DNA of 64,000 nucleotides from Rubrivivax sp. A210. Its GTDB lineage: Bacteria; Pseudomonadota; Gammaproteobacteria; Burkholderiales; Burkholderiaceae_C. Positions 4,718-25,543 of the stretch are shown here, in pieces. Under the pieces are notes generated by a model. It ran no database searches. It was not told the DNA's origin and saw only the letters and a program-made list of their open reading frames with translations. A program made the position numbers and the translations under genes. Every line of letters begins with the position of its first letter. Position 1 is the first letter of the stretch. The stretch covers positions 310,001 to 374,000 of the forward strand of contig NZ_CAJGBN010000001.1 of the NCBI RefSeq assembly GCF_904426505.1. Direction: 5' to 3'.

Positions 4718-4729
4718 GAAAGGGTTAAG
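4714..4729 (+). promoter_or_regulatory. Candidate response-regulator box (TTAAG direct repeat, 11-bp period)
   Basis: CTAAG (4714-4718) and TTAAG (4725-4729) form a direct repeat with exact 11-bp spacing. It overlaps the stop codon of the dehydrogenase and lies 53 bp before the CcmI-like gene. The layout resembles the 11-bp-period direct repeats recognised by PmrA/QseB-class OmpR regulators. The downstream operon encodes such a regulator, so autoregulation is plausible. A better copy lies at 12320-12335. Confidence 0.4.
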
Positions 4730-4781
4730 CGCCAGCCACTACAGTACGGCCCTGCAAAATCCGCACCGTACCGCGTCGCCA

Positions 4782-6008: not shown

Positions 6009-6674
6009 ATGAAGCTGTTGCTCGTCGAGGACGACGCGCGCCTGGCCGGCGCCGTGCGCACCTGGATGGGCCACGGCGGCATCGAGGTCGAGTGGATCAC
6101 GCTCGGCCGCGAGATCGAGCCGGCGCTGCGCCAGGGCGGCTTCGACTGGGTCGTGCTCGACCTCGGCCTGCCCGACATCGACGGCGAGACCGCACTGCAA
6201 GGCCTGCGCGCGGCCGGCTACGAGCTGCCGGTGCTGGTGATGACCGCACGCGAGCAGGTCAAGGACCGCGTGCGCCTGCTCGATCTGGGTGCCGACGACT
6301 TTCTCGTCAAGCCGGTCCACCTGGACGAGCTGGCGGCGCGGCTGCGCGCGGTGCAGCGCCGCCAGGGCACGCGTGCCTCCGAGCCAGTGCTGCGCCATGG
6401 CGGACTCACCATGATGATGGCCAGCCGCACGGTCTCGGTCGACGGCAGCTACGTCGCGCTCACCAACCACGAGTTCACCCTGCTCGAGGCGCTGCTGCGC
6501 CGGCGCGGCAGCGCGGTCTCGCGCGACCAGCTGCTGCAGGCCCTGGGCGCCGCGCCCGACGAGGCCGTGGGCAATGCAGTCGATGTCCACGTCCACCATC
6601 TGCGGCGCAAGCTCGGCGCCGGCCTCATACGCACCGTGCGCGGCGTCGGCTACACCCTGGGGCCGGCGGGCTGA
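6009..6674 (+). CDS. OmpR-family response regulator (QseB/PmrA/TctD type)
   Basis: The 221 residues comprise a receiver domain (1-120) and a winged-helix DNA-binding domain (about 125-220). Acidic residues E7, D8 and D9, phospho-acceptor D51 (VVLDLGLPD), the T in VMTAR and the switch lysine in DDFLVKPVH are all present. The effector domain shows the usual LTNHEFTLLEALL start and the recognition region VDVHVHHLRRKLG, ending in TVRGVGYTL. The gene lies between the CcmI-like gene and its cognate kinase, whose ATG overlaps this stop (TGATG). Likely targets are the 11-bp-period TTAAG repeats at 4714 and 12320; that link is inference. Confidence 0.92.
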   Translation: MKLLLVEDDARLAGAVRTWMGHGGIEVEWITLGREIEPALRQGGFDWVVLDLGLPDIDGETALQGLRAAGYELPVLVMTAREQVKDRVRLLDLGADDFLVKPVHLDELAARLRAVQRRQGTRASEPVLRHGGLTMMMASRTVSVDGSYVALTNHEFTLLEALLRRRGSAVSRDQLLQALGAAPDEAVGNAVDVHVHHLRRKLGAGLIRTVRGVGYTLGPAG

Positions 6675-9370: not shown

Positions 9371-9437
9371 GGCCACAGAACGATCTTCGGCCGGCGAGTG
9401 TGGCAGGCCGAAGCCTTTCCCGTAAGGACTGTAATGC

Positions 9438-9565: not shown

Positions 9566-10504
9566 ATGTCAGATCACGCGATAGCCGCCTACCCCTCGCC
9601 GTCCGCAAGCGCGCCGGCGGCCCCCGGCATCAGCCGTGCGCTGCAGGACGCCGAGCATTCCGGCCACCACGGCGGCGTGCGCGAGGTTTTTCTCTACCTG
9701 ATGCTGGCAGCCCTGCTGGTGGCAACCTGGTTGTTCACGCGGCTGCAGCTCTACACCACGCAGTCCGACACCGCCTACTGGCTGGGCGTGGCCGGCGGTG
9801 TCAGCATGCTGCTGCTGTTGAGCTACCCCATGCGCAAGTACCTGCGCTTCATGCAGCGCCTGGGCAAAGCCAGGCTGTGGTTCCTGGCTCACATTCTTCT
9901 TGGACTGACTGGACCGCTGTTGATCCTGCTTCACTCCAATTTCGAGATCAACTCCCTCAATGCCGGCGTGGCCTTCTACTCGATGTTCATCGTCGCTGTC
10001 AGCGGCATTGCAGGGCGATTTCTCTATGTGCGCCTGCACCGCAATGTCAACGGCGTCTCGCTGGGGCTTGACCAGCTGCGCGAGCGCCTGGTCGCCAGCA
10101 ACACCGGCGCCGTGCGCCTGCGCTTCGCGCCGCATGTGGTCGAGCGCTGCCGCGAGTTCGAGCGCCAGGCGCTGGAACAGCGCATCGTCACCGGCGCCGA
10201 GATCGGCCGCGCCATGGTGCTGCTGCCCTGGCTGCGCTGGCGCGCCTCGGCCTGGTGCAATGCCGAACTGCGCCGCCGCCTGGTGGCCGTGGCCCATACC
10301 GAGGGCTGGACACGGCGCCAGCTGCAGGGTCGCCATCGCGCGGCGCAGCGACTGGTCGATTCCTACCTGGGCAGTGCCCAGAACGTGGCCATGTTCAGCG
10401 CCTGGGCGCGGCTGTTCTCGTGGTGGCATGTGGCGCACACGCCCTTCGTCTACCTGCTGTTCCTGAGCGCCATCGTGCACGTGATCGCTGTACACGCCTA
10501 CTGA
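9566..10504 (+). CDS. Membrane protein, putative b-type cytochrome subunit
   Basis: This 312-residue inner-membrane protein has about five helices: 41-62, 72-90, 105-126, 133-155 and 288-308. Histidines sit in or next to them (AHILLGL, LLHSNF, WWHVAHTPF, IVHVIAVH), which suits binding of b-type heme between helices and quinone chemistry. A soluble basic loop of about 120 residues lies between helices 4 and 5. GGGGA precedes ATG 9566 by about six nt. It directly precedes the 24-heme cytochrome, so it could link the quinone pool or the divergent oxidoreductase to the periplasmic hemes. I do not recognise a named family, and the heme assignment is inferred from the histidines only. Confidence 0.6.
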   Translation: MSDHAIAAYPSPSASAPAAPGISRALQDAEHSGHHGGVREVFLYLMLAALLVATWLFTRLQLYTTQSDTAYWLGVAGGVSMLLLLSYPMRKYLRFMQRLGKARLWFLAHILLGLTGPLLILLHSNFEINSLNAGVAFYSMFIVAVSGIAGRFLYVRLHRNVNGVSLGLDQLRERLVASNTGAVRLRFAPHVVERCREFERQALEQRIVTGAEIGRAMVLLPWLRWRASAWCNAELRRRLVAVAHTEGWTRRQLQGRHRAAQRLVDSYLGSAQNVAMFSAWARLFSWWHVAHTPFVYLLFLSAIVHVIAVHAY

Positions 10505-10526
10505 AGCCGTGCCCACCTGGCCCTTT

Positions 10527-12302
10527 ATGCGGCGCCTTCTCGCCGCGCTGGCCCTGCTGTGGGCCGGCGCGCTGCCGGCCCAGACCATCGAATCAGTGCT
10601 GGCGCCCGGCCTCGTGATCCAGGGCCACGTCAAGACCGAGCACGACTGCAAAGCCTGCCATGTGCGCTTCGAGCGCAATGCCCAGGACGGCCTGTGCCTG
10701 GCCTGCCACAAGGACGTGGGCGAAGACATCCGCCTGCACAAGGGCTGGCACGGGCGGCGCGACGCCAAGCAGCAGGCCCAGCCCTGCCGCGCCTGCCACA
10801 CCGACCACAAGGGCCGCGCCGCCCAGGTGGCGGCCTTCGACCAGCGCCAGTTCGACCACCGCGCCACCGATTTCGAACTGCACGACAAGCATGCCGGCGT
10901 CGAATGCGCCAAATGCCATCTGCCGGCCAAGCGCTGGCGCGAGGCGCCCCTGGCCTGCAATGGCTGCCACGCCAAGGACGATGTACACAAGGGCGGCCTG
11001 GGCGCCAAGTGCGAGGACTGCCACGACGCCAAGGACTGGAAGAAGGCCATCTTCGACCACGCCAAGACGCGCTTTCCGCTGGTCGACAAGCACGAGGCCG
11101 CCAAGTGCGAGGCCTGCCATGCCCAGGCCCGCTACAAGGACACGCCGCGCACCTGCATAGGCTGCCACCGCAAGGAAGACGAGCACAAGGGCCGCTACGG
11201 CGAACGCTGCGAAGCCTGCCACGGCGCCAAGGCCTGGAAGCCGTCGAGCTTCAACCACGACGCCGACACCAAGTACCCGCTGCGCGACAAGCACCGGGCC
11301 GTCAAGTGCAGCGCCTGCCACACCGGCACGCTCTATGTGCAGAAGCTGGGCAGCGCCTGCGTGGACTGCCACCGCAAGGACGACAAGCACGAGGGCACGC
11401 TGGGCAACAAGTGCGCCGACTGCCACGGCGAGCGCAGCTGGAAGGATCCGGCCAAGAGCTTCGACCACGACAAGTCGCGCTTCCCGCTGCTGGGCGCCCA
11501 CATCAAGACGCCGTGCAAGGACTGTCACGCCGACCCGCTGTACCGCAACACGCCCAGCGACTGCATCGCATGCCACCGCAAGGACGACCGCCACAAGGGC
11601 AACCTGGGCCCCAAGTGCGGCGACTGCCACGGCGAGGTGAACTGGAAATCGGTACCGGGCCGCTTCGATCACGCGCGCACCAAATTCCCGCTGCGCAACG
11701 CCCACGCGGCGAAAGCAGTCGCCTGCCACGACTGCCACGAGACGCTGAAGGACTACAAGGGCACGCCCACGGCCTGCGTCTCCTGCCACCGCCGCGACGA
11801 CCGCCACGAGGCCACGCTGGGCACGCGCTGCGAGCAGTGCCATACCGACGTCAACTGGAAGGTGGCCCGCTTCGACCATGGCAAGACGCGCTTCGCGCTG
11901 GCCGGCGGCCACGCCGTCGTGGCCTGCCGCGACTGCCACAAGACGCTGCGCTACAAGGAGGCGCCCAGCGATTGCCTGGCCTGCCACCGCAAGGACGACA
12001 AGCACAAGGCGACGCTGGGCGCGGCCTGCCAGAACTGCCACAACGTGCGCGCCTGGACGCTGTGGGATTTCGACCACGCGCGCACCAAGTTCAAGCTCGA
12101 AGGGCGCCATCCCAAGGTGGCCTGCACCGCCTGCCATGCCCAGCCGGCGCCGGCGGGCAAGCCCATCGCCGCGGTGGGCAGCGACTGCCTGGCCTGCCAC
12201 CGCAAGGACGACCGCCACGAGGGCCGCTTCGGCCGCCGCTGCGAGCAGTGCCACAGCGCCGACAGCTGGCGCCAGTTGCGCAAGGCCGGGGCCGCGCGCT
12301 GA
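10527..12302 (+). CDS. Secreted 24-heme c-type cytochrome
   Basis: The 591-residue protein has a signal peptide (MRRLLAALALLWAGALPA, cleavage before Q) and 24 CXXCH motifs by direct count. It is built from about six copies of a 65-70-residue module of the form FDH-x-K-T-x-F-P-L, CxxCH, YK-x-TP, CxxCHRKDD-x-H-K-G-x-LG, CxxCH, W-K. Extra histidines in each module could act as distal ligands. It is probably a periplasmic electron carrier between the upstream membrane protein and the giant cytochrome. GTG 10509 is a possible alternative start, but ATG 10527 gives the cleaner signal peptide. The N-terminal part of the next protein contains the same module. Confidence 0.92.
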   Translation: MRRLLAALALLWAGALPAQTIESVLAPGLVIQGHVKTEHDCKACHVRFERNAQDGLCLACHKDVGEDIRLHKGWHGRRDAKQQAQPCRACHTDHKGRAAQVAAFDQRQFDHRATDFELHDKHAGVECAKCHLPAKRWREAPLACNGCHAKDDVHKGGLGAKCEDCHDAKDWKKAIFDHAKTRFPLVDKHEAAKCEACHAQARYKDTPRTCIGCHRKEDEHKGRYGERCEACHGAKAWKPSSFNHDADTKYPLRDKHRAVKCSACHTGTLYVQKLGSACVDCHRKDDKHEGTLGNKCADCHGERSWKDPAKSFDHDKSRFPLLGAHIKTPCKDCHADPLYRNTPSDCIACHRKDDRHKGNLGPKCGDCHGEVNWKSVPGRFDHARTKFPLRNAHAAKAVACHDCHETLKDYKGTPTACVSCHRRDDRHEATLGTRCEQCHTDVNWKVARFDHGKTRFALAGGHAVVACRDCHKTLRYKEAPSDCLACHRKDDKHKATLGAACQNCHNVRAWTLWDFDHARTKFKLEGRHPKVACTACHAQPAPAGKPIAAVGSDCLACHRKDDRHEGRFGRRCEQCHSADSWRQLRKAGAAR

Positions 12303-12445: not shown

Positions 12446-15400
12446 ATGATGAAGAGGCAAGCGGGCATCCAAACCGCGGCCACGCGGCACAAGGCAGGGC
12501 CGGACGCGGTCTGCTGCCAGGGTGCCGGCCACACGAATGTGCAAGCGATGGTCACCGCGGACCCGCTGTTGCGCTGGATGCGCGGCCTGCTGGCGCTGCT
12601 GGCGCTGCTGGTGGTGCAGGTCGGTGGCCTGCCGCCGGCCCTGGCCCAGAGCAGCGGCTATGACCACACCTCCACCGGCTTTGCGCTGCGCGGCAAGCAC
12701 GAAGAGGCCAGTTGCGAGAGCTGCCATCTGCGCGGCATCTTCAAGGGCACGCCGCGCGACTGCGCCACCTGCCATGTGGCCAACAACCCGCGCGGCGCCA
12801 AGGCGATGCCTTTGCGCCATGTGCAGACGCTGGAGAGCTGCGACAACTGCCACAGCCTCAACAGCTTTGCCGGCGCCCTCTTCAGCCACTTCGGCGTCGC
12901 CCCCGGCGGCTGCGCCAGCTGCCACAACGGCGTGCGCGCCGCAGGCAAGAGCGCCGGCCACCCCGGCACCGTGGCCTCGTGCGACGAATGCCACCGCACC
13001 GCGGCCTTCTTGCCCGCGGCGGCCAAGCAAAGCAACCACATCCCCACTGCCACCGGTGCTGCCTGCAGCGCCTGCCACAGCAACCCCGCCTTCCGTGTCA
13101 TGCCCACGCTGGCGGCGATCCACGCCAACGCCCCCAGCAGCACCAGCGGCTGCGCCACCTGCCACGGCGCCGCCGCTGCCAGCTTTGCCAACCCGGCCAG
13201 CGGCTTTGCCATCGTTGGCTTTCCAGCCAATCACATTCCCACCCAGGCGGCCTGCGAGAACTGCCACACCGGCCCCGGCACCGGCATCAGCGCACTGCCT
13301 GTGGGCAATGGCGCGCGCTTTTCCGGCGCGCTGATGAACCACGCCGGCATCGCCAGCGGCTGCGTCGACTGCCACCGCCCGGCCGGCAGCACGGTGGCCT
13401 TTGCCGGCATCAGCGCCATCGTCGGCATGCCGCCCACCGCGCCCGCCGGTCCGGGCGCCCACATTCCGTCTTCCACCGCCTGCGAGAGCTGCCACCTGGC
13501 CAGCCGGCCTGCCGGTCTGGTGCCGGCCTCGGCCACGCGCAGCGCGCCCGGCAGCGGCTTTGCCACGCCGGCACCCGGCGGTGCCCAGATCCACGCCGGG
13601 GTCAGTGCCGGCTGCAATGCCTGCCACGAGGCCGGCATGGTGTGGATGGGCATGAACGCCTATCCCATCAGCCCCGCCACGCTGACCGCCGGCGCGCAAT
13701 ACCGCGGCTTCCAGACCCGCCCGCGCGCCGCCGCCAGCAGCTTCAGCGTGGCCAACCCGGCCCACCCCACCGGCGACGACTGCAGCCGCTGCCACAGCAG
13801 CACATCAGCCTTCAGCGGCGTCGACAAGCCGGCCAACCACATCCCCTATGCCGCCAGCGCGCAGTGCAACAGCTGCCACACCGGCACCGACTACGCGGTG
13901 ATGCCCACGCTCACCGCGATTCACGCCTTCGCCCCCAACCCCAGCGGCAATTGCGCGCAGTGCCATGGCGCGGCAGCGGCCTCGTTCGCGATACCCGCCA
14001 ACGGCTTTGCCATCGTCGGCCTGCCCGCCAACCACATCCCCACCAGCGTCGGCTGTGAGGTCTGCCACGTCGGCCCGGGCACGTCCATCGCCGCCCTGCC
14101 GGTCACCGACGGCGCGCGCTTCGCCGGCAGCCTGATGAACCACGCCGGCATCACGCGCGATTGCGCCGCCTGCCACCAGCCCTCGGGCAGCGCCACCACG
14201 TTTGCCGGCATCACGCGCATCGTCGGCATGCCGGCCACCAACCCCGCGGGTGCCGGCGCCCACATCCCCTCGTCCACGGTCTGCGAAAGCTGCCACCTGG
14301 CGAGCATGCCGCCGGGGCTGATCGCCGCCTCGGCCACCCTCAGCGCGCCGGGCACGGCCTTCGCCAATCCGCCGCCCACGGGGGCGCAGATCCACGCCGG
14401 CACGACATCGGGCTGCGTCGCCTGCCACGAGGCCGGCATGGTGTGGATGGGCGTGGCGGCCTACCCGATCTCGCCCGCCACGCGGATAGACGGCGCGCAA
14501 TACACCGGCTTCCAGACGCGCCCGCGCGCCGCCGCCGGCCCCTTCAACGTGGCCGACGCTGCCCACCCGGCGGCCGGCGACTGCAGCCGCTGCCACAGCA
14601 ACACCGCCGCCTTCACCGGCGTCGACAAGCCGGCCAACCACATACCCTATGCAGCCACGGCCACCTGCACCAGCTGCCACGTCAACCCGGACTACGCGGT
14701 CACGCCCAGCCTCGCGGCGATCCACGCCAACGCCCCCAACCCCAGCGGCAACTGCGCGCAATGCCATGGCGCGGCGGCGGCCTCCTTCGCCATCCCCGCG
14801 ATCAACTTCGCCATCGTCGGCATGCCGGCGACCCACATTCCCACCACCGCGGCCTGCGAGCTGTGCCACGTCGGCCCCGGCTCGTCCATTGCCGCGCTGC
14901 CCGTCACGGATGGCGCGCGGTTCAAAGGCAGCCTGATGAACCACGCCGGCATCAGCGCCAACTGCGCCAGCTGCCATCTGCCGGCGGGTTCTTCCACCAC
15001 CTTCGCCGGCATCGCCCGCCTCATTGGAATGCCGCCCACCAGCCCGGTGGGTGCGGGTTCGCACATCCCTTCGTCCACCACCTGCGAGAGCTGCCACCTG
15101 GCCAGCCTGCCCAGCGGCCTGATCGCCGCCAGCGCCAGCAAGACCGCGCCCGGCACCGGCTTCGCGACGCCGGCGCCCACCGGCGTGCAGATCCACAACG
15201 GCGTGAGCAGCGGTTGCGCGGCCTGCCACGAGGCCGGCGCGGTCTGGATGGGCATGGGTGCCTATCCCATCAGCCCGAGCACGCTGACCGCCGGCGCCCA
15301 GTACAAGGGCTTCCAGACCCGGCCGCGCGCAGCGGCCGGCAGCTTCAACGTCGCCGACGCGGCCCACCCGCCCGCCGGCGACTGCAGCCAGTGTCACGGC

Positions 15401-18400
15401 AACACCACCGCCTTCACCAGCGTCGACAAGCCAGCCAACCACATTCCGTTCGCTGCCACCGCCACCTGCAACGCCTGCCACACCAGCAGCGACTACGCGG
15501 TGATGCCGACGCTGGCCAATATCCACGCCAACGCCCCCAGCACCACCACCAACTGCGCCCAGTGCCATGGCGCGGCGGCAGCCTCGTTCGCGATTCCGGC
15601 CATCGGCTTCAGCGTCGTCGGCATGCCGACGAACCACATCCCCACCTCGGCCGCCTGCGAGCTGTGCCATGTGGGCCCCGGCTCGTCCATCGCGGCGCTG
15701 CCGGTGGGCAATGGCGCGCGCTTCAGCGGCAGCCTCATGAACCACGCCGGCATCAGCGCCAACTGCGTCGCCTGCCACCAGCCCGCCACGGCCACCACCA
15801 CCTTTGCCGGCATCACGCGCCTGATCGGCATGCCGGCCACCACGCCGGCCGGCCCCGGCTCGCACATCCCCTCGTCCACCGCCTGCGAAGCCTGCCACCT
15901 GGCCAGCATGCCGACCGGCCTGGTGCCGGCCTCGGCCACCAAGACGGCGCCGGGCACCGGCTTCGCCACGCCCGCGCCCAGCGGCACGCAGATCCACGCC
16001 GGCGTCAGCAGCGGCTGCAATGCCTGCCACGAGGCCGGCATGGTGTGGCTGGGCGTGGGCGCCTATCCCATCGCCCCCACCACCCTGGTGGCCGGCGCCT
16101 CTTACACCGGCTTCCAGACGCGGCCGCGTGCGGCGGCCGGCACCTTCAACGTCGCCAACCCGGCCCACCCGGGCACGGGCGACTGCAGCCAATGCCACGG
16201 CAGCACGAGCGCCTTCACCGGCGTCGACCGGCCGGCCAACCACATCCCCTTTGCGACCAGCGCCCAATGCAGCGGCTGCCACACCGGCAGTGACTACGCG
16301 GTGTTCCCGACACTCACCGCCATCCACGCCAACGCCCCCAACCCCGTGGGTGGCTGCGCCCAGTGCCACGGCGCCGCGGCGGCCTCGTTCGCCTTGCCGG
16401 CGGTGGGCTTCAGCGTCATCGGCATGCCGGTGGACCACATCCCCACCAACGCCGGCTGCGAGACCTGCCACGTCGGCCCCGGCTCGTCCATCGCCGCCCT
16501 GCCCGTCACCGACGGCGCGCGCTTCAGCGGCAGCCTGATGAGCCATGCCGGCATCGCGAGCGGCTGCGCCGCCTGCCACATGCCCAATGCCGGCCTGGCC
16601 AGCTTTGCCGGCATCGCCGCCATCGTCAAGCAGCCGCGCACCAGCCCGGTGGGCCCCGACGCCCATATCCCGACCACCGCCGCCTGCGAGGCCTGCCACC
16701 TGGCCAGCACGCCGGCCGGCCTGATCCCGGCCTCGGCCGTGACGCTGGCGCCCGGCACCGGCTTCGCCATCCCGGCGCCCACCGGCGCGCAGATCCATGC
16801 CGGCGTCAGCAGCGGCTGCAGCGCCTGCCACGAGACCGGCTACCAGTGGATGGGCATCAATGCCTATCCCCCCAGCCCGACCACGCTGACGCCGGGCGCG
16901 CAATACCGCGGCTTCCAGACGCGGCCGACGCCGGTGGCCAGCGCCACCAGCGTGGCCGACCCGGCCCACCCGGCCGGCGGCGACTGCTCGCAATGCCACA
17001 CCGGCACCACCGCCTTCACCGGCGTGGCGCCGCCGGCCAACCACATCCCGTTCGCGGCCCAGGCCACCTGCAACGCCTGCCACCTGGGCAGCGACTACGC
17101 GGTGCGGCCGACGCTGGCCAATATCCACCGCAACGCCCCCAGCACCACCGGCAACTGCGCCCAGTGCCACGGCGCCGCGGCAGCCTCGTTCGCGATTCCC
17201 GCGTCCAACTTCAGCATCGTCGGCCTGCCGGCCGACCACATTCCCACCAGCGCCAGTTGCGAGCTGTGCCACGTCGGCGCCGGCTCGTCGATCGCCGCGC
17301 TGCCGGTGCCCGACGGCGCCCGTTTCGCCGGCAGCCTGATGAACCACGCCGGCATCAGCAGCGGCTGCGTCGCCTGCCACCAGCCGGCCGGCGCGACGAC
17401 GCGCTTCGCCGGCATCACGGCCCTGGTGGGCATGCCGCCCACCAGCCCGGTGGGCGGCGGCAGCCACATCCCGTCCGGCACGGCCTGCGAGGCCTGCCAC
17501 CTGGCCAGCATGCCGGCGCTGCCGGTGCCGGCCTCGGCGACCAAGACCGCACCCGGCACCGGCTTTGCCACCCCGGCCCCCACGGGCGCCCAGATCCACG
17601 CCGGCGTCAGCAGCAGCTGCTCGGCCTGCCACGAGACCGGTGCGGTGTGGATGGGCATGGGCGCCTACCCGATCACGCCGACCACGCTCACCGCGGGCGC
17701 GCTCTACCGCGGCTTCCAGACGCGGCCGGTGGCCGCCGCGGGCCTGTTCAGCGTGGCCGACCCGGCCCACCCGCTGGCGGGCGACTGCAGCCAGTGCCAC
17801 AGCAACACCACCGCCTTCAGCGGCGTCGACAAGCCGGCCAACCACATCCCCTATGCCGCCAGCGCGCAGTGCAACAGCTGCCATACCAGCAGCGACTACG
17901 CGGTGCGGCCGACGCTGACGGCGATCCACGCCAACGCCCCCAGCAGCACCAGCAACTGCGCCCAGTGCCACGGCGCCGCGGCGGCCTCGTTCGCGATACC
18001 GCGCACCGGCTTTGCCATCGTCGGCCAGCCGGCCAACCACATCCCCACCAGCACGGCCTGCGAGGTCTGCCACGTCGGGCCGGGCTCGTCCATCGCCGCC
18101 CTGCCCGTCACCGATGGCGCGCGCTTTGCCGGCAGCCTGATGAACCATGCCGGCATCGCCGGCAACTGCGCCGCCTGCCACCTGCCGGCCGGCAACGCCA
18201 CCACCTTTGCCGGCATCACGCGCATCGTCGGCATGCCGGCCACCAGCCCGCCGGGTTCGGGCTCGCACATCCCGTCCACCACCAACTGCGAGACCTGCCA
18301 CCTGGCCAGCATGCCGGCCGGCCTCATCGCCGCCTCGGCCACCGCCACCGCGCCCGGCACCGGCTTCGCGTCGGCGCCACCCGGCGGGGCGCAGATCCAC

Positions 18401-21400
18401 AGCGGCGTCACCGCCGGCTGCGCCGGCTGCCACGAGGCCGGCATGGTGTGGATGGGCATGGGCGCCTACCCGATCTCGCCCGCCACCCTGGTGCCCGGCG
18501 GGCAGTACCGGGGCTTCCAGACCCGGCCCGGGCTGGCGGCCAGCGCCTTTGCCGTGGCCGACCCGGCCCACCCGGCGGCGGGCGACTGCGTGCAGTGCCA
18601 CAGCAGCACCACCGCCTTCACCGGCGTCGAGAAACCCGGCAACCACATTCCCTATGCCGCCAGCGCCCAGTGTGCCAACTGCCACACCAGCAGCGACTAT
18701 TCCGTTGTGCCGACGCTGGCCAACATCCACGCCAACGCGCCCAGCGTCAGCGGCAACTGCGCGCAGTGTCATGGCAGCGCCGCGCCCTCGTTCGCGATCC
18801 CGCGCACCGGCTTCGCCATCGTCGGCCAGCCGGCCAATCACATCCCCACCAACCAGAGCTGCGAGGTCTGCCACGTCGGCGCCGGCTCGTCGATCACGGC
18901 GTTGCCGGTGGCCGATGGCGCGCGCTTCGCCGGCTCGCAGATGAACCATGCCGGCATCACCAGCACCTGCTCGGCCTGCCACCTGCCAAGCGGCAGCAGC
19001 ACCAGCTTCGCCGGCATTGCGCGCATCGTCGCCATGCCGCCCACCAGCCCGCCGGGCAGCGGCAGCCACATCCCCTCATCGCCCCAGTGCGAGACCTGCC
19101 ACCTGGCCAGCCTGCCGGTGGGGATGATCCCGGCCACGGCTACCGCCACCGCGCCGGGCACCGGCTTCGCCAGCCCCGCACCCAGCGGTACGCAGATCCA
19201 CACCGGCATCACCGCAGGCTGCGCCGCCTGCCACGAGGCCGGCATGGTGTGGATGGGCGTGGCGGCCTACCCGATCTCGCCCGCCCAGCTGAGCCCGGGC
19301 GCCAGCTACCGCGGCTTCCAGACGCGGCCGCGGGCGGCGGCCTCTACCTTCAGCGTTGCCGACCCCAGCCACCCGGCGGCCGGCGACTGCAGCCAGTGCC
19401 ACGGCAACACGACGGCCTTCACCGGCATCGACAAGCCGGGCAACCACATCCCCTACACCGCCAGCGCCAGCTGCGACAACTGCCACACCAGCGCTGATTA
19501 CGCGGTGATGCCCACGCTGGCCAACATCCACCTCTTCTCGCCCAACCCGAATGGCGGCTGCGACCAGTGCCACGGCGCGGCGGCGGCCAGCTTCGCGATT
19601 CCGGCGGCCAACTTCGCCATCGTCGGCAAGCCGGCCAACCACATCCCCACCAGCGCCGGCTGCGAGGTCTGCCACGTCGGCCCCGGCTCGTCCATCGCCG
19701 CGCTGCCGGTGGCGGACGGCGCGCGCTTCGCCAACAGCCTGATGAACCACGCCGGCATCAGCAGCAACTGCGCCGCCTGCCATGTGGCGGCGGGCACGAC
19801 AGCGGCCTTTGCGGGCATCTCGCGCATCGTCGGCATGCCGCCCACCACCCCCATGGGCGCGGGCGCGCACATCCCCTCGTCCACCACCTGCGAGGCCTGC
19901 CACCTGGCCAGCCTGCCGGCCGGCCTGATACCGGCCAGCGCCACCCGCAGCGCACCCGGCAGCGGCTTCGCCACGCCGGCGCCCACCGGCACGCAGATCC
20001 ACGCCGGCGTCACCAGCGGCTGCGCCGCCTGTCACGAGAGCAACTACGTCTGGATGGGCGTGGCCGCCTACCCGATCACGCCGACCACGGTGACGGCCGG
20101 CGCCCAGTACAAGGGCTTCCAGACACGGCCACGCGCGGCGGCCGGCACGTTCAACGTCGCCAACGCCACGCACCCGGCCACCGGCGACTGCAGCCAGTGC
20201 CACTCGGGCACGACGGCCTTCAGTGCCATCGACAAGCCGGCCAACCACATCCCCTATGCGGCCACCGCGGCCTGCAACGCCTGCCACACCGGCAGCAACT
20301 TCAGCATCATGCCGACGCTGGCCGCCATCCATGCCAACGCCCAGAGCACGACGGCCAATTGCGCCCAGTGCCACGGCGCGACGGCGGCCTCGTTCGCGAT
20401 ACCCGCCAATGGCTTTGCCATCGTCGGCCTGCCGGCCAACCACATTCCCACCAGCGCCAGCTGCGAGGTCTGCCACGTCGGCCCCGGCTCGTCGATCGCG
20501 GCCACGCCGGTGCCCAATGGCGCGCGCTTCAGCGGCAGCCTGATGAGCCACGCCGGCATCACCAGCAACTGCGTCGCCTGCCATGTGACGGCCAACACGC
20601 CGGCCAGCTTCGCCGGCATCACGCGCATCGTGGTCATGCCGCCCACCAGCCCGGTGGGCGCGGGCTCGCACATCCCCTCGTCCACCGCCTGCGAAACCTG
20701 CCACCTGGGCAGCGTGCCGGCCGGCCTGGTCGCCGCCAGCGCCACCAAGACGGCGCCGGGCACCGGCTTCGCCACACCGGCCCCCACGGGCGCGCAGATC
20801 CACAGCGGCGTGACCAGCGGTTGCGCCGCCTGCCACGAATCCGGCTCGGTGTGGATGGGCATGAGCGCCTACCCGATCACGCCCGCGGTGCTGACCGCCG
20901 GCGCCCAGTACCGGGGCTTCCAGACGCGGCCACGCGCGGCAGCCGGCAGCTTCAACATCGCCGACGCCGGCCACCCGGCCGGCGGCGACTGCTCGCTGTG
21001 CCATGCCAACACCACCGCCTTCGTGGGCGTCGACAAGCCGGCCAACCACATCCCCACCGCGGCCACGGCGCAGTGCACGAATTGCCACACCGGCACCGAC
21101 TACGCGGTGATGCCGACGCTGGCCAACATCCACCTCCACGCGCCCAGCACCACCGCCAACTGCGCGCAGTGCCACGGCGCGACGACGGCGGCCACCTTCG
21201 CCATCCCGGCGGCCAACTTCAGCATCGTCGGCCTGCCGAGCAACCACATCCCGACCACGGCCAGCTGCGAGGTCTGCCACGTCGGCCCGGGCTCGTCGAT
21301 TCCGACCCTGCCGGTGCCCAACGGGGCCCGTTTCGCGGGTTCGCTGATGAGCCATGCCGGCATCACCACCGGCTGCATCAACTGCCACGTCGCGGCGGGC

Positions 21401-22942
21401 ACCGTGACCTCCTTCGCCGGCATCACGCGCATCGTCGGCATGCCGCCCACCAGCCCGGTGGGCGCGGGCGCGCACATCCCATCGTCCACCGCCTGCCAGG
21501 CCTGCCACTCGACCAGCAGCGTGAGCGGCCTGATTCCGGCCTCGGCCACGCGCACCGCGCCCGGCACGCTGTTCGCCACCCCGGTGCCCACCGGGGCGCA
21601 GATCCACACCGGCATCACCTCGGGCTGCAACGCCTGCCACGAGAGCGGCTTCGTCTGGATGGGCATGGGCAACTACCCGATCACCCCGACGGTCATCACC
21701 TCCGGCGCCCAGTACAAGGGCTTCCAGACGCGGCCTCGCGCTACGGCGGGCACCTTCAACGTGCTCGACGCCGGCCACCCGGCCACCGGCGACTGCTCGC
21801 AATGCCACACCGGCACCAGCTTCTTCGACGGCGCCGCCAAGCCCACCGGCCACATCCCGACGAATGGCAATTGCTCGACCTGCCACATCGTCGCCGGTGA
21901 CTTCTCGGTTGCCGGCCTGGCGTCCAACACTGCGCTGCACACGGGCATCACCGCCAACTGCCGCAGCTGCCACGTGGCCGGCGCCGGCGCCGGGCCCTTT
22001 GCTGGCTGCGCGACCCAGGCCGCCTGCCGGACACCGGTGCCGCTGACCTACCAGCCCAAGACCATGCCGCTGCTGGCCGGCGGCTCGCCGACCGCGCCCT
22101 CGGCCTCGACCCACATCCCGGTGGGCAACGTGGCCTGCGAGCGCTGCCATTCGGCGACCAACTTCACCACCTTCAAGCTCGCCGGCACCAACCCGATGCG
22201 GCCCAACACGGCCGGCGGCATCGCCATGCACAACGCCGTACCGCCGGCCACCTTCACCTGCATGAGCTGCCACGAGCGGCCCTACACCTGGTTCGGCGTG
22301 GTCATCAAGACGCGGGATGCCGACCACCTGGCCAAGCCGGCGCGCGCCGCGCCGCATGACTGCGACGAGGCCGGCTGCCACAAGGTGGGCGCGTCCTGGA
22401 GTGCCGTGCTGCGGCCGATCCCGGTGCGCCGTGCCGCGGTGGGCAATGCGCTGCCGCGCCTGCTGCCGCGCGAGATCCTGGGCCTGCCCGCGCCGCGCGC
22501 CGGTGCCGGCTTCGACCACCGCGGCGTCACCGTCGGCCAGTGCCAGACCTGCCACAACGGCCAGCTCGCCAAGGCACGCCCGGCCAAGCACTTCGGCGCC
22601 AAGCTGTCCTGCGACGCCTGCCACCGCACGACGGCCTGGACGCCGGCCCAGTTCAGCCACCCGGCCCAGGTGACCGGCCGCTGTGCCGCCTGCCACAACG
22701 GGGTGGACGCGAGCGCCCGGCCCGGCACCCACTTCGTGACCGTGCGCAGCTGCGACAGCTGCCACCGCCCGCTGGCCTGGCAGCCGGTGCGCTACCAGCA
22801 TCTGTCGCCCGCCTACCTGCCCCTGCCCGACCGGCCAAGCTGCGTCAGCTGCCACATCACCAATGGCGAGGTCATCCCGCGCCAGCTGCACGGCAACCCG
22901 CGCGTGCGGCCGGTGCCGGTGCCCGGGAGGACCGGCCCGTGA
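12446..22942 (+). CDS. Giant multiheme c-type cytochrome (91 CXXCH + 1 CX4CH)
   Basis: This is a 3,498-residue secreted cytochrome. A signal peptide (hydrophobic core about 47-60, cleavage after ALA at 67) follows a 44-residue preamble. ATG 12446 has GGGGGAAA upstream, but 12548 or 12578 may be the real start. Residues 69-196 hold five CXXCH and resemble the 24-heme protein. Residues 197-3134 are eleven tandem modules of 267 residues (the last 268), each with exactly seven CXXCH, 77 in all. The C-terminal 364 residues add nine CXXCH and one CX4CH (CDEAGCH, residue 3306). Total candidate hemes: 92. Short NHIP, SHIPSS and QIH blocks supply likely distal histidines. A heme count this high suggests long-range or outer-surface electron transfer. 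The partner barrel gene overlaps the stop. Confidence 0.93.
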   Translation: MMKRQAGIQTAATRHKAGPDAVCCQGAGHTNVQAMVTADPLLRWMRGLLALLALLVVQVGGLPPALAQSSGYDHTSTGFALRGKHEEASCESCHLRGIFKGTPRDCATCHVANNPRGAKAMPLRHVQTLESCDNCHSLNSFAGALFSHFGVAPGGCASCHNGVRAAGKSAGHPGTVASCDECHRTAAFLPAAAKQSNHIPTATGAACSACHSNPAFRVMPTLAAIHANAPSSTSGCATCHGAAAASFANPASGFAIVGFPANHIPTQAACENCHTGPGTGISALPVGNGARFSGALMNHAGIASGCVDCHRPAGSTVAFAGISAIVGMPPTAPAGPGAHIPSSTACESCHLASRPAGLVPASATRSAPGSGFATPAPGGAQIHAGVSAGCNACHEAGMVWMGMNAYPISPATLTAGAQYRGFQTRPRAAASSFSVANPAHPTGDDCSRCHSSTSAFSGVDKPANHIPYAASAQCNSCHTGTDYAVMPTLTAIHAFAPNPSGNCAQCHGAAAASFAIPANGFAIVGLPANHIPTSVGCEVCHVGPGTSIAALPVTDGARFAGSLMNHAGITRDCAACHQPSGSATTFAGITRIVGMPATNPAGAGAHIPSSTVCESCHLASMPPGLIAASATLSAPGTAFANPPPTGAQIHAGTTSGCVACHEAGMVWMGVAAYPISPATRIDGAQYTGFQTRPRAAAGPFNVADAAHPAAGDCSRCHSNTAAFTGVDKPANHIPYAATATCTSCHVNPDYAVTPSLAAIHANAPNPSGNCAQCHGAAAASFAIPAINFAIVGMPATHIPTTAACELCHVGPGSSIAALPVTDGARFKGSLMNHAGISANCASCHLPAGSSTTFAGIARLIGMPPTSPVGAGSHIPSSTTCESCHLASLPSGLIAASASKTAPGTGFATPAPTGVQIHNGVSSGCAACHEAGAVWMGMGAYPISPSTLTAGAQYKGFQTRPRAAAGSFNVADAAHPPAGDCSQCHGNTTAFTSVDKPANHIPFAATATCNACHTSSDYAVMPTLANIHANAPSTTTNCAQCHGAAAASFAIPAIGFSVVGMPTNHIPTSAACELCHVGPGSSIAALPVGNGARFSGSLMNHAGISANCVACHQPATATTTFAGITRLIGMPATTPAGPGSHIPSSTACEACHLASMPTGLVPASATKTAPGTGFATPAPSGTQIHAGVSSGCNACHEAGMVWLGVGAYPIAPTTLVAGASYTGFQTRPRAAAGTFNVANPAHPGTGDCSQCHGSTSAFTGVDRPANHIPFATSAQCSGCHTGSDYAVFPTLTAIHANAPNPVGGCAQCHGAAAASFALPAVGFSVIGMPVDHIPTNAGCETCHVGPGSSIAALPVTDGARFSGSLMSHAGIASGCAACHMPNAGLASFAGIAAIVKQPRTSPVGPDAHIPTTAACEACHLASTPAGLIPASAVTLAPGTGFAIPAPTGAQIHAGVSSGCSACHETGYQWMGINAYPPSPTTLTPGAQYRGFQTRPTPVASATSVADPAHPAGGDCSQCHTGTTAFTGVAPPANHIPFAAQATCNACHLGSDYAVRPTLANIHRNAPSTTGNCAQCHGAAAASFAIPASNFSIVGLPADHIPTSASCELCHVGAGSSIAALPVPDGARFAGSLMNHAGISSGCVACHQPAGATTRFAGITALVGMPPTSPVGGGSHIPSGTACEACHLASMPALPVPASATKTAPGTGFATPAPTGAQIHAGVSSSCSACHETGAVWMGMGAYPITPTTLTAGALYRGFQTRPVAAAGLFSVADPAHPLAGDCSQCHSNTTAFSGVDKPANHIPYAASAQCNSCHTSSDYAVRPTLTAIHANAPSSTSNCAQCHGAAAASFAIPRTGFAIVGQPANHIPTSTACEVCHVGPGSSIAALPVTDGARFAGSLMNHAGIAGNCAACHLPAGNATTFAGITRIVGMPATSPPGSGSHIPSTTNCETCHLASMPAGLIAASATATAPGTGFASAPPGGAQIHSGVTAGCAGCHEAGMVWMGMGAYPISPATLVPGGQYRGFQTRPGLAASAFAVADPAHPAAGDCVQCHSSTTAFTGVEKPGNHIPYAASAQCANCHTSSDYSVVPTLANIHANAPSVSGNCAQCHGSAAPSFAIPRTGFAIVGQPANHIPTNQSCEVCHVGAGSSITALPVADGARFAGSQMNHAGITSTCSACHLPSGSSTSFAGIARIVAMPPTSPPGSGSHIPSSPQCETCHLASLPVGMIPATATATAPGTGFASPAPSGTQIHTGITAGCAACHEAGMVWMGVAAYPISPAQLSPGASYRGFQTRPRAAASTFSVADPSHPAAGDCSQCHGNTTAFTGIDKPGNHIPYTASASCDNCHTSADYAVMPTLANIHLFSPNPNGGCDQCHGAAAASFAIPAANFAIVGKPANHIPTSAGCEVCHVGPGSSIAALPVADGARFANSLMNHAGISSNCAACHVAAGTTAAFAGISRIVGMPPTTPMGAGAHIPSSTTCEACHLASLPAGLIPASATRSAPGSGFATPAPTGTQIHAGVTSGCAACHESNYVWMGVAAYPITPTTVTAGAQYKGFQTRPRAAAGTFNVANATHPATGDCSQCHSGTTAFSAIDKPANHIPYAATAACNACHTGSNFSIMPTLAAIHANAQSTTANCAQCHGATAASFAIPANGFAIVGLPANHIPTSASCEVCHVGPGSSIAATPVPNGARFSGSLMSHAGITSNCVACHVTANTPASFAGITRIVVMPPTSPVGAGSHIPSSTACETCHLGSVPAGLVAASATKTAPGTGFATPAPTGAQIHSGVTSGCAACHESGSVWMGMSAYPITPAVLTAGAQYRGFQTRPRAAAGSFNIADAGHPAGGDCSLCHANTTAFVGVDKPANHIPTAATAQCTNCHTGTDYAVMPTLANIHLHAPSTTANCAQCHGATTAATFAIPAANFSIVGLPSNHIPTTASCEVCHVGPGSSIPTLPVPNGARFAGSLMSHAGITTGCINCHVAAGTVTSFAGITRIVGMPPTSPVGAGAHIPSSTACQACHSTSSVSGLIPASATRTAPGTLFATPVPTGAQIHTGITSGCNACHESGFVWMGMGNYPITPTVITSGAQYKGFQTRPRATAGTFNVLDAGHPATGDCSQCHTGTSFFDGAAKPTGHIPTNGNCSTCHIVAGDFSVAGLASNTALHTGITANCRSCHVAGAGAGPFAGCATQAACRTPVPLTYQPKTMPLLAGGSPTAPSASTHIPVGNVACERCHSATNFTTFKLAGTNPMRPNTAGGIAMHNAVPPATFTCMSCHERPYTWFGVVIKTRDADHLAKPARAAPHDCDEAGCHKVGASWSAVLRPIPVRRAAVGNALPRLLPREILGLPAPRAGAGFDHRGVTVGQCQTCHNGQLAKARPAKHFGAKLSCDACHRTTAWTPAQFSHPAQVTGRCAACHNGVDASARPGTHFVTVRSCDSCHRPLAWQPVRYQHLSPAYLPLPDRPSCVSCHITNGEVIPRQLHGNPRVRPVPVPGRTGP
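13034..21847 (+). repeat. Eleven tandem 801-bp units encoding seven-heme modules
   Basis: Taking the Asn codon of the first NHIP block as marker, units begin at 13034, 13835, 14636, 15437, 16238, 17039, 17840, 18641, 19442, 20243 and 21044, and the equivalent codon after the last is at 21848. Ten steps are exactly 801 bp; the last is 804 because of one extra codon (GATTAATF instead of GAAAASF, near 21180). Each unit carries CXXCH seven times in the same order, around the blocks DYAV-MPTL, CAQCHGAAAASFAIP, CEVCHVGPGSSIAALPV, GARF-GSLMNHAGI, HIPSS, GAQIHAGV, CHEAGMVWMG and GFQTRPRAAAG. The strong conservation points to amplification of one module. Confidence 0.97.
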
Positions 22943-25092
22943 GACCCGCCATGCTGAGCTTCCTCCGCTCCCTCGGCCTGCTGGCACTGCTGCTGGCCGG
23001 CGCCGCCCAGGCCCAAACGCTGGGCGACATCGACGTGCGCAGCCAGGGCGATCTGCGCATCGTGCGCATACGCTTCAACGCCTCGGTGGGCTTTGTCGGC
23101 GTCCAGCCCTCGGGCACGACCGACCGCTACACGCTGCGCTTCGAACTGCTGGCCGGCGAAGAGCCGGTGCTGCGCCAGGCCACCGACGAACTGCGCCGCC
23201 TGCCTGCCGCCGACGGCCTGCCCGAGCTGAGCGTGGCCTACGAGGCGGCACCGGCCAACCGCATCAAGCAGCTCACCGTGCGCCTGGCCCAGGCGCTGCC
23301 GCTCGAGGCCCGCCAGGGGCCGAACGCGCGCTCGCTGGAACTGCTGCTGCGCCTGCCCGAAGGCACGGCCGCGGCACCCGCCACACCCAGGCTGCCCGCC
23401 GCCGCGCTGCGCGCCGCCGAGCCGGCGCCCACGGCCACGCCCGAGATCGAGGCCCAGGCCGGCGCGTTGCTGGCCCAGGCGCGCGAGGCCCTGGCGGCGC
23501 GCCAGGCCGATGCGTCCGTGTCCCGGCTCAACGAGCTTTTGAAGCTGCCCCCCAACGGCCAGACGCAGACGGCGCAGGAGCTGATCGGCAACGCCTGGGA
23601 AGCGGCCGACGACGCCCGCCGTGCGCGCATCGAGTACGCGCTCTACCTGCGCCTGTACCCGCAGGGCGAAGGCGCCTCCCGCGTCGCGGCGCGGCTGACG
23701 GCGCTGGGCGGCCCGCTGCAGGCCAGCGCGCCGGCCGGTGCGGCCAGTGCAGCCAGCGCGGCCGCCCCGCCGCCCAAGATCTTCAGCGGCTCCATCGCCC
23801 AGTACTACTACGGCGGCAAGGCGCGCAGCAAGTCGCTCGTCAACATCGCCACCGGCATCGACCAGGCCACGCTCAGCCGCACCACCGAATCGGCCATCGT
23901 CACCAGCGCCGACCTCAGTGCGCGCTTTGCCAATGGCTGGGGCGAGACGCGGGCGGTGCTGCGCGGCTCGGGGTCCACCAATTTGCAGTCCGGCGGCAAG
24001 AACAGCAATTCCATTGGCTCGGCCTACTTGGAGCAGCGCTTCGGCGAGCAAGGACCTGCTGTCCGCGCGGGCCGCCAGTCGCCCATCAGCGGCGGCCTGC
24101 TGGGCCTGTTCGACGGCGTCTCGCTGGTCTGGCCGCTGGCCAACGGCCTGCGCGTGGACGTAATGGGCGGCGTGCCGGCCAGCGCCCTGGTGTCGGCGCC
24201 ATCGGAACAGCTCTTTGCCGCCGTGCTCGAGGCCGACACCTTGTTCGAGCGCTGGGGCGGCAACTTCTACCTGCTCGACCAGAGTACCGAAGGCATCAGC
24301 AACCGGCGCGCGCTGGGTGCCGAGCTGCGCTGGGCCGGCGAGCAGGGCTCGATCAATGCGCTGACCGACTACGACCTGGTCTTCAACGCGCTCAACGCGG
24401 TGTCTCTGCACGGCAGCCTGCAACTGCCCCAGCAGACCACCGTCACCGTGCTCGTCGACGAGCGCCGCGCGCCTTCGCTGCAGCTGACCAACGCACTCAT
24501 CAGCTCGGGCGTGGTGTCGCTGAAGACGCTGCTGCAGACGCGCTCGCTGGCGCAGATCAAGGACGATGCGCGCAAGACCTCGGCCACGGCGCGGCAGTTC
24601 CTCGTCAGCGCCTCGCGGCCACTGAGCCCGCGCTGGCAGGGCAGCGCCGACCTGCGCTACAGCGCCGTCGGTGCCCTGCCCGCGGTGGGCGATTTCGAGG
24701 CCAGTGCCGCCACCGGCGCGCAATACAGCCTGAGTGCCCAGCTCACCGGAACCAACCTGTACTCGCAGCGCGACGTCCACAACTTCAACGCCAGCCTCAT
24801 CACCACGCCCTTCTTCAACGGCCTGCAACTGGCCTACAACAACCTCTCGGTGCTGTCGGCCTGGCCCGACCTGACGCTGGAGCCGTCGATACGCTTCTAC
24901 ACCCAGCGCGACAAGCAGCAGGTGACGATCAACCGCATCGGCCCCGGCACCCGCCTCGCCTGGAAAGCGAGCCCGCGCGCCAGCCTCATGGGCGAGTTGC
25001 TCTACGAGGTCTCGCGCAGCCGCGGCCCCGGCACCAGCGACAACAGCAGCTCGGTCTTCTTCTACGTGGGCTACCGCTATGAACTGTTCTAA
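22939..25092 (+). CDS. Outer-membrane beta-barrel with N-terminal TPR-like domain
   Basis: The 717-residue protein has a signal peptide (core LGLLALLLAG, cleavage after AQA). A periplasmic region (about 30-270) includes TPR-like helices (AGALLAQAREALAARQADA and the ELIGNAWEAADDARRARIEY region). A long barrel of alternating strands follows, ending in a C-terminal phenylalanine (GYRYELF), the usual BAM-recognised end. GTG 22939 overlaps the preceding stop as GTGA and has GGGAGG eight nt upstream, so it was preferred to ATG 22951. Coupling to the giant cytochrome suggests a barrel that houses, anchors or exports it, in the manner of MtrB/PioB porins. No MtrB-type CxxC or family signature is visible, so that role is inference. 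Confidence 0.7.
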   Translation: MRPAMLSFLRSLGLLALLLAGAAQAQTLGDIDVRSQGDLRIVRIRFNASVGFVGVQPSGTTDRYTLRFELLAGEEPVLRQATDELRRLPAADGLPELSVAYEAAPANRIKQLTVRLAQALPLEARQGPNARSLELLLRLPEGTAAAPATPRLPAAALRAAEPAPTATPEIEAQAGALLAQAREALAARQADASVSRLNELLKLPPNGQTQTAQELIGNAWEAADDARRARIEYALYLRLYPQGEGASRVAARLTALGGPLQASAPAGAASAASAAAPPPKIFSGSIAQYYYGGKARSKSLVNIATGIDQATLSRTTESAIVTSADLSARFANGWGETRAVLRGSGSTNLQSGGKNSNSIGSAYLEQRFGEQGPAVRAGRQSPISGGLLGLFDGVSLVWPLANGLRVDVMGGVPASALVSAPSEQLFAAVLEADTLFERWGGNFYLLDQSTEGISNRRALGAELRWAGEQGSINALTDYDLVFNALNAVSLHGSLQLPQQTTVTVLVDERRAPSLQLTNALISSGVVSLKTLLQTRSLAQIKDDARKTSATARQFLVSASRPLSPRWQGSADLRYSAVGALPAVGDFEASAATGAQYSLSAQLTGTNLYSQRDVHNFNASLITTPFFNGLQLAYNNLSVLSAWPDLTLEPSIRFYTQRDKQQVTINRIGPGTRLAWKASPRASLMGELLYEVSRSRGPGTSDNSSSVFFYVGYRYELF

Positions 25093-25543
25093 GGCCGCGG
25101 CCCTGCTGCCGCTGCTGGCCACCCTGCTGCCCGCGCCGGCCGCCGCGGTGCTGGGCGAAGGCCTGGCCAGCGTGCAGGCCGACACCCTGCGCCTGGCGGC
25201 CACGCGCCGCATTGCCTCCGGGCTCGAGACCCAGGTACACACGCTGGCGCAGGCCGATGGCTCGACGATCCGGCAGTACGTGGGGGCCGACGGCCGCGTC
25301 TACGCCATCAGCTGGAACACCCGCTACAAGCCGCGCCTGGACGCGCTGTTGGGCGCCCATTTCCCGGCCTATGCCGAGGCGGCGCGTGCCGCGCAGCAGC
25401 TGCGCGCCGGCGTGCGCCATGCGGCCAGCCTGAGCCATGGCGATCTGGTGGTGGAGTCGCTCGCCCATCTCAACGCCCATGCCGGCCGCGCCTGGCTGCG
25501 TTCGCGCCTGCCCGCCGCAGGGAGCGCCGATGCGATCCGCTGA
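25079..25543 (+). CDS. Secreted DUF2844 protein
   Basis: This 154-residue secreted protein starts inside the end of the barrel gene. It has a signal peptide (AALLPLLATLLPAPAAA) and the DUF2844 pattern: VLGE near the mature start, then IRQYVGADGRVYAISWNT and RLDALLGAHFPAY. DUF2844 genes commonly sit beside DUF3443 genes in Burkholderiales, as here. The biochemical role is unknown. Its place immediately after the cytochrome/barrel genes suggests a part in assembling or anchoring that complex, but nothing in the sequence proves it. Confidence 0.75.
   Translation: MNCSKAAALLPLLATLLPAPAAAVLGEGLASVQADTLRLAATRRIASGLETQVHTLAQADGSTIRQYVGADGRVYAISWNTRYKPRLDALLGAHFPAYAEAARAAQQLRAGVRHAASLSHGDLVVESLAHLNAHAGRAWLRSRLPAAGSADAIR

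Follow-up and report, generated by a model that had tools for sequence, protein, structure and literature searches.

A PCC3 cytochrome with 92 heme motifs in Rubrivivax sp. A210: a regular array of seven-motif modules and a near-obligate flavoprotein partner

What is a bacterial protein with 92 heme-binding motifs used for, and to which system does it belong? The question is raised by a gene in a stretch of 64,000 nucleotides from Rubrivivax sp. A210 (NCBI RefSeq assembly GCF_904426505.1, contig NZ_CAJGBN010000001.1, positions 310,001 to 374,000 of the forward strand), which is called the window below. An earlier note, made from the sequence alone, had read the product as a secreted molecular wire or charge store with an exceptional number of hemes, the centrepiece of a possibly undescribed system. 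The gene is part of a PCC3 cluster, which consists of genes for an inner-membrane protein (IMP), a periplasmic multiheme cytochrome (pMHC), an extracellular multiheme cytochrome (eMHC) and a porin, and it codes for what is predicted to be the eMHC. Taken as a whole, we consider it likely that the eMHC is the surface wire of a PCC3 conduit, with a flavoprotein at the inner end and an outward flow of electrons. Published work on PCC3 and on other cytochromes is cited from passages of the respective papers.

The open reading frame of the eMHC runs through 3,498 codons without a stop (coordinates are collected in Table 1). The count of 91 CXXCH and one CX4CH, split 5 + 77 + 9, that had been given for it was reproduced, the CX4CH being one of the last ten sites. 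When the residues were shuffled 200 times, a mean of 0.57 and a maximum of 3 CXXCH were obtained. Third-position GC lies between 0.84 and 0.98 in every 100-codon block printed, and this steady level gives no sign of a frameshift, so that the frame looks coding throughout. A frameshift near residues 3320-3365, where the protein looked odd by eye, was ruled out because third-position GC is unchanged. Among 120 eMHC-type proteins (the one in the window included), a CX4CH stands at the sixth place from the end in 36 and at the last place in 14, while 66 have none within the last eight sites; as it recurs in relatives, the CX4CH is not a damaged-looking site.

The database copy of the protein (P0122) has 3,464 residues and is thus shorter than the open reading frame. 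Together with a hydrophobic, signal-peptide-like stretch recognised by eye at residues 45-68, this makes a Sec signal and a later start plausible. The start codon therefore probably lies downstream of the start of the open reading frame, and the secretion that had been assumed for the protein is putative, as suggested by this stretch. If cut after ALAQ, the mature chain would have 3,430 residues and a computed mass of ~340 kDa bare or 397 kDa with 92 hemes.

By motif spacing the protein divides into an N-terminal part with five sites, an array of eleven modules with 77 and a C-terminal part with ten. The start point of a module is a choice of register: modules cut by spacing, as used for the set of 136 modules, the module tree and the collinearity test described below, begin one motif before those used for the identity comparison, and eleven are obtained either way. 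Modules 1-10 are 64-80% identical at the protein level and 71-83% at the DNA level. Divergence of module 11, indicated by a low identity, was ruled out, since this module has one additional residue and the low value is the effect of a one-residue register shift.

Outside the heme motifs, exactly seven columns of modules 1-10 hold histidine, and each of them is invariant. Seven non-motif histidines were likewise invariant in all 136 modules cut by spacing from 13 proteins, a set in which the seven motif histidines are invariant by construction. Furthermore, a histidine is found at most 16 residues upstream of each of the 92 motifs, and there are 97 non-motif histidines for the 92 heme sites. 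This is the supply that a bis-His ligation of all hemes would call for, and we infer such ligation for all sites.

The relatives of the eMHC were taken from a list of 120 out of 142 matches, all between 0.55 and 1.75 times the length of the query and hence a sample of long ones. Leaving aside the two entries of the window's own protein (P0001 and P0122), 119 relatives were used for counting. Among the matches listed, 91 CXXCH or more are found in 12 of the 119 and more than 91 in 10, namely P0223 (133), P0196 (122), P0211 (120), P0123 (113), P0125 (110), P0131 (106), P0129 (96), P0230 (94), P0127 (92) and P0128 (92); if the CX4CH is counted too, nine of those listed exceed 92. A record heme count was thereby ruled out. 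Of the claim that the count is exceptional, what stands is that it is high. A giant cytochrome begins in the class-wide locus L140, where an IMP gene and an adjoining 24-motif cytochrome gene are followed by 81 CXXCH up to the end of the stretch.

Differences in length come as whole modules. Five or more modules were recognised in 36 proteins, counting that of the window; their numbers are 5-9 and 11-14, and each added module brings 256 residues and 6.7 motifs (r 0.98). P0124 and P0127, which lie on other contigs, have eleven modules that match those of the window one-to-one and ungapped, and none of 500 shuffles reached the score in either comparison. P0123 and P0127 match each other with one contiguous insertion of three modules (0/500 shuffles). 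For the window's protein as P0001, the collinearity score was reached by 2/500 shuffles against P0123, by 1/500 against P0137, and by 0/500 against both P0128 and P0126, the last two in gapped alignments; P0124 and P0127 were the only ones among the pairs compared to match its modules one-to-one without gaps. Since eleven modules have been kept in register by these two proteins, the array is old and inherited and changes by in-frame blocks. In the module tree the nearest neighbour of 69 of the 136 modules lies in the same protein, which points to homogenisation mixed with vertical descent.

An array of this kind might also be an assembly product with a wrong number of repeats, or the gene might be decayed and its protein not made. 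The DNA identity among modules 1-10 and the many relatives whose contigs end within the eMHC gene could be taken in this sense. Against it stand the open frame, the steady third-position GC, the shortness of exact internal repeats (71 nt at most) and the conservation of all eleven modules in register by P0124 and P0127, and we regard it as very improbable. A collapsed or expanded gene, named in the earlier note as an outcome that would undo its reading, is made unlikely by the last two of these points. The eMHC frame is still open at the end of the locus in 42 loci within the series L003-L082; in L003, L004, L021, L048 and L062 it runs beyond the fetched flank, and in the others it reaches the end of the contig, which indicates that assemblies tend to break inside such genes.

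The system to which the eMHC belongs is seen from its neighbours. The definition of the IMP by two WX3HX13H motifs and SGXXG was taken from PMC5566968, where PCC3 was published in 2017. The window has an IMP of ~300 residues with these motifs, an adjoining periplasmic-type cytochrome with 24 CXXCH, an extracellular-type cytochrome with very many motifs (91 CXXCH and one CX4CH), the location of both being predicted, and a porin next to the cytochrome genes, recognised from a predicted model and from homologues 3' of the eMHC gene. Gene set and motifs are those of PCC3 in PMC5566968, and an undescribed system, as the earlier note had supposed, was ruled out.

In an alignment of 27 IMP sequences, H109, H123, S146, G147, G150, W287, H291 and H305 are invariant and W105 is kept in at least 90%; Pfam does not recognise a domain in this protein. 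Five transmembrane helices are a further trait of the IMP in PCC3. Elsewhere in the same genome (G000:C15:32684-32968) there is a distant IMP-like match (32%). The porin, for which Pfam gives no match, was modelled with a pLDDT of 79.9 and a pTM of 0.56 from a 36-row alignment. A porin homologue follows the eMHC gene in relatives, and the order IMP-pMHC-eMHC-porin is found in those with enough sequence. In L138 (G290) two multiheme genes with 23 and 69 motifs lie between the periplasmic cytochrome and the porin, and the flavoprotein gene is interrupted. A contig labelled Candidatus Methanoperedens (L078) codes for an IMP and a 24-motif cytochrome that share 46% and 57% identity, respectively, with those of the window, and this label is probably a binning error.

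The pMHC was surveyed in 86 loci (80 named and 6 unnamed congeners), 79 of them with a complete pMHC frame. It has 24 motifs in 73 of the 79 and 27 in four; exceptions are L027, where 9 + 15 motifs are split over two frames, and L060, with a frame of 400 residues and 3 motifs. In the window its motifs are mostly spaced as three-motif repeats of ~16-18-33, with 23 residues per motif. Across ten class-wide loci (10 of the 42 class-draw genomes with an IMP, see below), the gene after the IMP has 18, 21 or 24 motifs, all multiples of three, and 21, 24 and 27 are given for Gallionellaceae in PMC10734462. A multiple-of-three rule appears not to have been stated in the passages of the PCC3 literature searched. 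The near-constant size is naturally read as a gauge fixed by periplasmic width, and the spanning of the periplasm by the pMHC was pointed out earlier in PMC10734462.

The eMHC of the same 86 loci ranges from 13 to 68 CXXCH in the 30 frames that reach a stop. Large PCC3 cytochromes are present in isolates such as Rhodoferax lacus IMCC26218 (L042; 68 motifs in the frame, 66 in the database protein P0170), Caenimonas koreensis DSM 17982 (L074; 52 + 1) and Pelomonas sp. V22 (L038; 46 + 1). Such variation (up to 133 motifs among the long relatives) beside a nearly fixed pMHC is what might be expected of a charge store, in which the modules act as a capacitor and buffer electrons when acceptors are short, rather than of a long-distance wire; a storage role for PCC3 has been put forward in PMC10734462. 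Storage alone needs neither a fixed spacing nor a regular array, and the sequence cannot separate the two roles. We hold storage in place of conduction to be unlikely and the wire role of the eMHC to be highly probable. The proposal of a wire or charge store survives as the best reading and is supported by the module anatomy, while the system around it was already described.

A fifth gene lies divergent from the IMP gene. Its product, labelled PyrRed here, combines a ferredoxin-type domain with FAD/NAD(P) domains, and its best NCBIfam match is YpdA, under the cut-off. At least 23 of 24 aligned sequences (nine of them printed) have Cys61, 67, 71, 91, 97, 101 and His94. The first motif reads CxxCxxCxxxCP, or has Ser at the second Cys, in the printed rows, and in the second, CxxHxxCxxxCP, His replaces Cys.

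The distribution of PyrRed was followed in three draws of genomes. In the genus draw (60 genomes) the IMP was found in 14, and PyrRed in 14 of these 14 and in 2 of the 46 others (G040 and G046). In the family draw (200) PyrRed was found in 14/14 genomes with an IMP and in 1/186 without (G078), and in the class draw (369) in 41/42 and 3/327, respectively, a total of 44 PyrRed genomes. The class-draw genomes with an IMP cover 34 families; the mismatches are G446, where PyrRed is missing beside an IMP, and G354, G394 and G433, where it is extra. Two IMPs occur in five class-draw genomes, and each of these carries two PyrRed genes as well; the association persists inside the genus, where the cluster is patchy. 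Relative to 47 IMP places, PyrRed is divergent within 1.5 kb at 34, on the same contig within 15 kb at 7 and off the contig at 6.

A search with the default threshold was discarded, since common FAD/NAD domains made 60/60 congeners match. For the genus a cut-off of at least 59% identity was used, chosen once the gap between E values of 3e-75 and 4e-13 had become apparent; in family and class, PyrRed matches were counted at E 1e-40 and IMP matches at E 1e-40 or 1e-30. The match in G046, which covers residues 228-439 only, was counted, as was the PyrRed of G394 at 32% identity (a PyrRed genome without IMP), and the interrupted gene of G290 was counted as present. G040, which has PyrRed without an IMP match, has the porin at a contig end.

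PCC3 is presented as four genes in PMC12442390. A term search of the main text of PMC5566968 and of another PCC3 paper, figures and supplements aside, returned no mention of PyrRed, and a search of the open-access literature, including the Pfam-style name, brought up none in which PCC3 is connected with this flavoprotein or with ccm genes. We propose PyrRed as a near-obligate fifth component of PCC3, and as such it appears to be new.

That PyrRed would transfer electrons to or from the conduit is a reading towards which we lean. A serious rival is that PyrRed is a cytochrome c maturation factor, supplying the reductant for heme or cysteine reduction at attachment. The PyrRed gene is directly 3' of ccmI in L119, L121, L123, L124 and L125, a CcmI-like gene lies within 500 nt in 14 of 56 PyrRed loci, and a ccm-type match is present in 30 of the 39 locus rows with a visible porin, some of which come from the same genome (e.g. 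L103/L109 and L063/L129). CcmF, CcmH and CcmI of L119, used as queries, were confirmed by Pfam, and CcmI matches may partly reflect TPR similarity. The names CcmG and CcmC are ones we assume by recognition, as Pfam gives a redoxin and an assembly domain common to CcmC and CcmF. Against a maturation role, the commonest place of PyrRed is divergent beside the IMP (34 of the 47 IMP places, class draw), ccm genes are clear only in L136 and L140 among the ten class-wide loci, and CcmF is found in 56 of the 60 congeners of the genus draw as against 16 with a PyrRed orthologue. We find this explanation doubtful.

With PyrRed as an electron-transfer partner, electrons would pass from NAD(P)H over FAD, Fe-S and heme b of the IMP to the pMHC, the porin, the eMHC and an external acceptor. 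PyrRed, as a membrane-anchored protein, would exchange electrons with cytoplasmic NAD(P)(H) on one side and with the IMP on the other; the 24-motif pMHC would give them to the eMHC via the porin, and the eMHC would hand them to an acceptor outside the cell. A terminal five-motif domain of the eMHC, with 22-25 residues per motif (compare 23 in the pMHC), may dock in the porin, so that the module array points outward. The rise per heme in OmcS is ~0.8 nm; 92 hemes placed in line at such a rise would reach ~70 nm. Carried further, this leads to a tentative view of PCC3 as a five-part trans-envelope NAD(P)H oxidase that would discharge NAD(P)H to solids tens of nm away, with three-heme units in the pMHC (18, 21, 24, 27) and seven-heme units, up to 14 counted, in the giant eMHC.

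The outward direction is only slightly favoured. It is preferred because the partner is of the NAD(P) type, because both PCC3 clusters of S. lithotrophicus ES-1 are down on Fe(II) (PMC8788666), and because all eight proteome columns seen in PMC12016527 give 0 for the extracellular cytochrome Slit_1448, where the porin and the IMP of its cluster were detected. The cell might instead take up electrons from Fe(II) or another solid donor, the direction first put forward for PCC3, with the flavoprotein as a sink or a regulator. PCC3 is found in iron oxidisers and has been modelled as an uptake conduit (PMC5566968; Gallionellaceae survey PMC10734462), and in Sideroxydans CL21 the IMP of one PCC3 copy is up when iron oxidation is possible (PMC12442390). 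The ES-1 data just given speak against inward flow, and by textbook thermodynamics the reduction of NAD(P)+ by electrons at the level of Fe(II) is uphill. An inward wire is, in our judgement, rather unlikely.

A number of points weigh against a surface wire that is fed from PyrRed and carries electrons outward. PMC12442390 calls the function of PCC3 untested, and its CL21 result runs counter to outward flow. The fall of the ES-1 clusters on Fe(II) is to be listed here as well, and the zeros of Slit_1448 mean that a surface role of the eMHC is not confirmed in ES-1. Several relatives have PyrRed next to ccm genes, and it could accordingly act in maturation. The Fisher values for the association of PyrRed with the IMP (7e-12, 1e-20 and 1e-49 for genus, family and class) ignore shared descent, and the three draws overlap, with G000 in all of them. 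As to structure, a prediction for two eMHC modules reached a pLDDT of 32.8 from ten alignment rows drawn from the window only, no solved PDB chain matches the eMHC or the pMHC by sequence at 1e-5, the lone PDB match of the module profile (5ze8_A, E 0.15) was taken as chance, and the porin model matches outer-membrane barrels at low TM-scores.

Table 1. Positions of the PCC3 genes, the parts of the eMHC and neighbouring genes in the window.
Feature	Position	Strand	Remarks
CcmI/CycH-like cytochrome c maturation protein	4692..6005	+	domain and family matches
Two-component system	6009..8050	+	response regulator 6009-6674, sensor kinase 6671-8050
Fe-S / FAD / NAD(P)-type oxidoreductase (PyrRed)	8057..9376	-	divergent from IMP; N-terminal hydrophobic stretch (by eye)
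PCC3 inner-membrane protein (IMP)	9566..10504	+	312 aa; two WX3HX13H and SGXXG
Periplasmic multiheme cytochrome (pMHC)	10509..12302	+	24 CXXCH, mostly three-motif repeats
eMHC of the PCC3 cluster	12446..22942	+	3498-aa open reading frame, probable start near 12548; 91 CXXCH and 1 CX4CH
N-terminal five-motif domain of eMHC	12713..12994	+	22 aa per motif
eMHC array	13004..21817	+	eleven 267-aa modules, 7 CXXCH each; spacing 28-29-34-36-40-44-56
C-terminal ten-site region of eMHC	21872..22855	+	mean 25 aa between last five motifs
CX4CH heme motif of eMHC (aa 3306)	22361..22381	+	sixth site from end; common to part of family
PCC3 porin	22951..25092	+	713 aa; N-terminal beta domain, TPR-like helices, ~22 C-terminal strands
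DUF2844 and DUF3443	25079..26840	+	DUF2844 25079-25543, DUF3443 25437-26840 (start uncertain); 3' of porin

On the far side of PyrRed, a two-component pair similar to that of the window stands upstream in the close relatives L003, L004 and L005. A lactate permease gene and a gene for a large FAD/Fe-S dehydrogenase (208-4717) lie upstream of the CcmI gene, at the place where the close relatives L003, L005 and L006 have ccmF-ccmG-ccmH-ccmI. The genome of strain A210 has two CcmF genes (G000:C56:2256-4226 and G000:C12:300620-302569), neither of them in the window, and may keep two heme-attachment systems. DUF2844 and DUF3443 also follow the porin in the close relatives L112, L113 and L115; the DTGS and DSGS stretches of DUF3443 are reminiscent of the active-site pair of pepsin-like aspartic proteases. 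A wax ester / triacylglycerol synthase (WS/DGAT) gene is found at 28598-30241 on the minus strand.

What appears to be new is the strict seven-motif module, the inherited number of modules and the near-obligate flavoprotein partner. PCC3 is present in many iron-cycling and other Proteobacteria, and a flavoprotein partner of the NAD(P) type offers a plausible inner end for it and a handle on driver and direction. Cytochromes built of modules, three-motif inside and seven-motif outside, are natural rulers for comparing length with conduction or storage, since there are related wires whose ends are conserved and whose similar modules number 5 to 14. A protein with 92 motifs is no rarity among the long relatives, and the frequent ending of contigs within genes of this type makes it probable that giant cytochromes are under-reported.

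The closest known system is PCC3 itself as described by He et al. in 2017 (PMC5566968), with the same IMP, periplasmic and extracellular cytochromes and porin, and with a repeat-rich eMHC. There the median numbers of heme sites are 34 and 21, the latter for the periplasmic cytochrome, and the maximum in one protein is 85; the window differs in its eleven regular seven-motif modules and 92 sites, and in the fifth gene, for an Fe-S flavoprotein, that tracks the cluster. Most PCC3 porins have up to 42 transmembrane regions (PMC5566968), and the porin of the window, with ~22 C-terminal strands in the model, is smaller than this maximum. The PCC3 clusters of Sideroxydans, other Gallionellaceae and Leptothrix (PMC10734462, PMC12442390, PMC13386937) likewise have a near-fixed pMHC beside a variable eMHC. 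Gallionellaceae eMHCs have 10-35 motifs and PCC3 subunits of the Leptothrix group 10-57, as against 92 here, and the passages of these three papers make no mention of a 267-residue seven-motif module.

MtrCAB and OmcA-MtrC of Shewanella share the arrangement of an extracellular multiheme cytochrome, a porin and a periplasmic one. The Pfam model of MtrC/MtrF domain II/IV matches 12 stretches of the eMHC, the OmcA/MtrC family model TIGR03507 gives it a score of 106.9 against a cut-off of 209.3, and OmcA and MtrC have ten hemes where the eMHC has 92 motifs. The giant cytochromes of ANME archaea are similar in having up to 86 heme motifs per protein, but they are archaeal, with S-layer or pectin-lyase-like domains, and do not form a porin conduit (PMC9012536); gene neighbourhoods with over a hundred heme motifs are given in PMC11475568. 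Finally, He et al. compare the two HX13H pairs of the IMP to the ferric reductase / NADPH oxidase (FRD) superfamily and see a likeness to its b-heme domain (PMC5566968). A chain of NAD(P)H, FAD, Fe-S and two b hemes, as formed by PyrRed and the IMP, would resemble an NADPH oxidase, and unlike in the FRD superfamily the flavin part at this locus is a separate protein with Fe-S sites.

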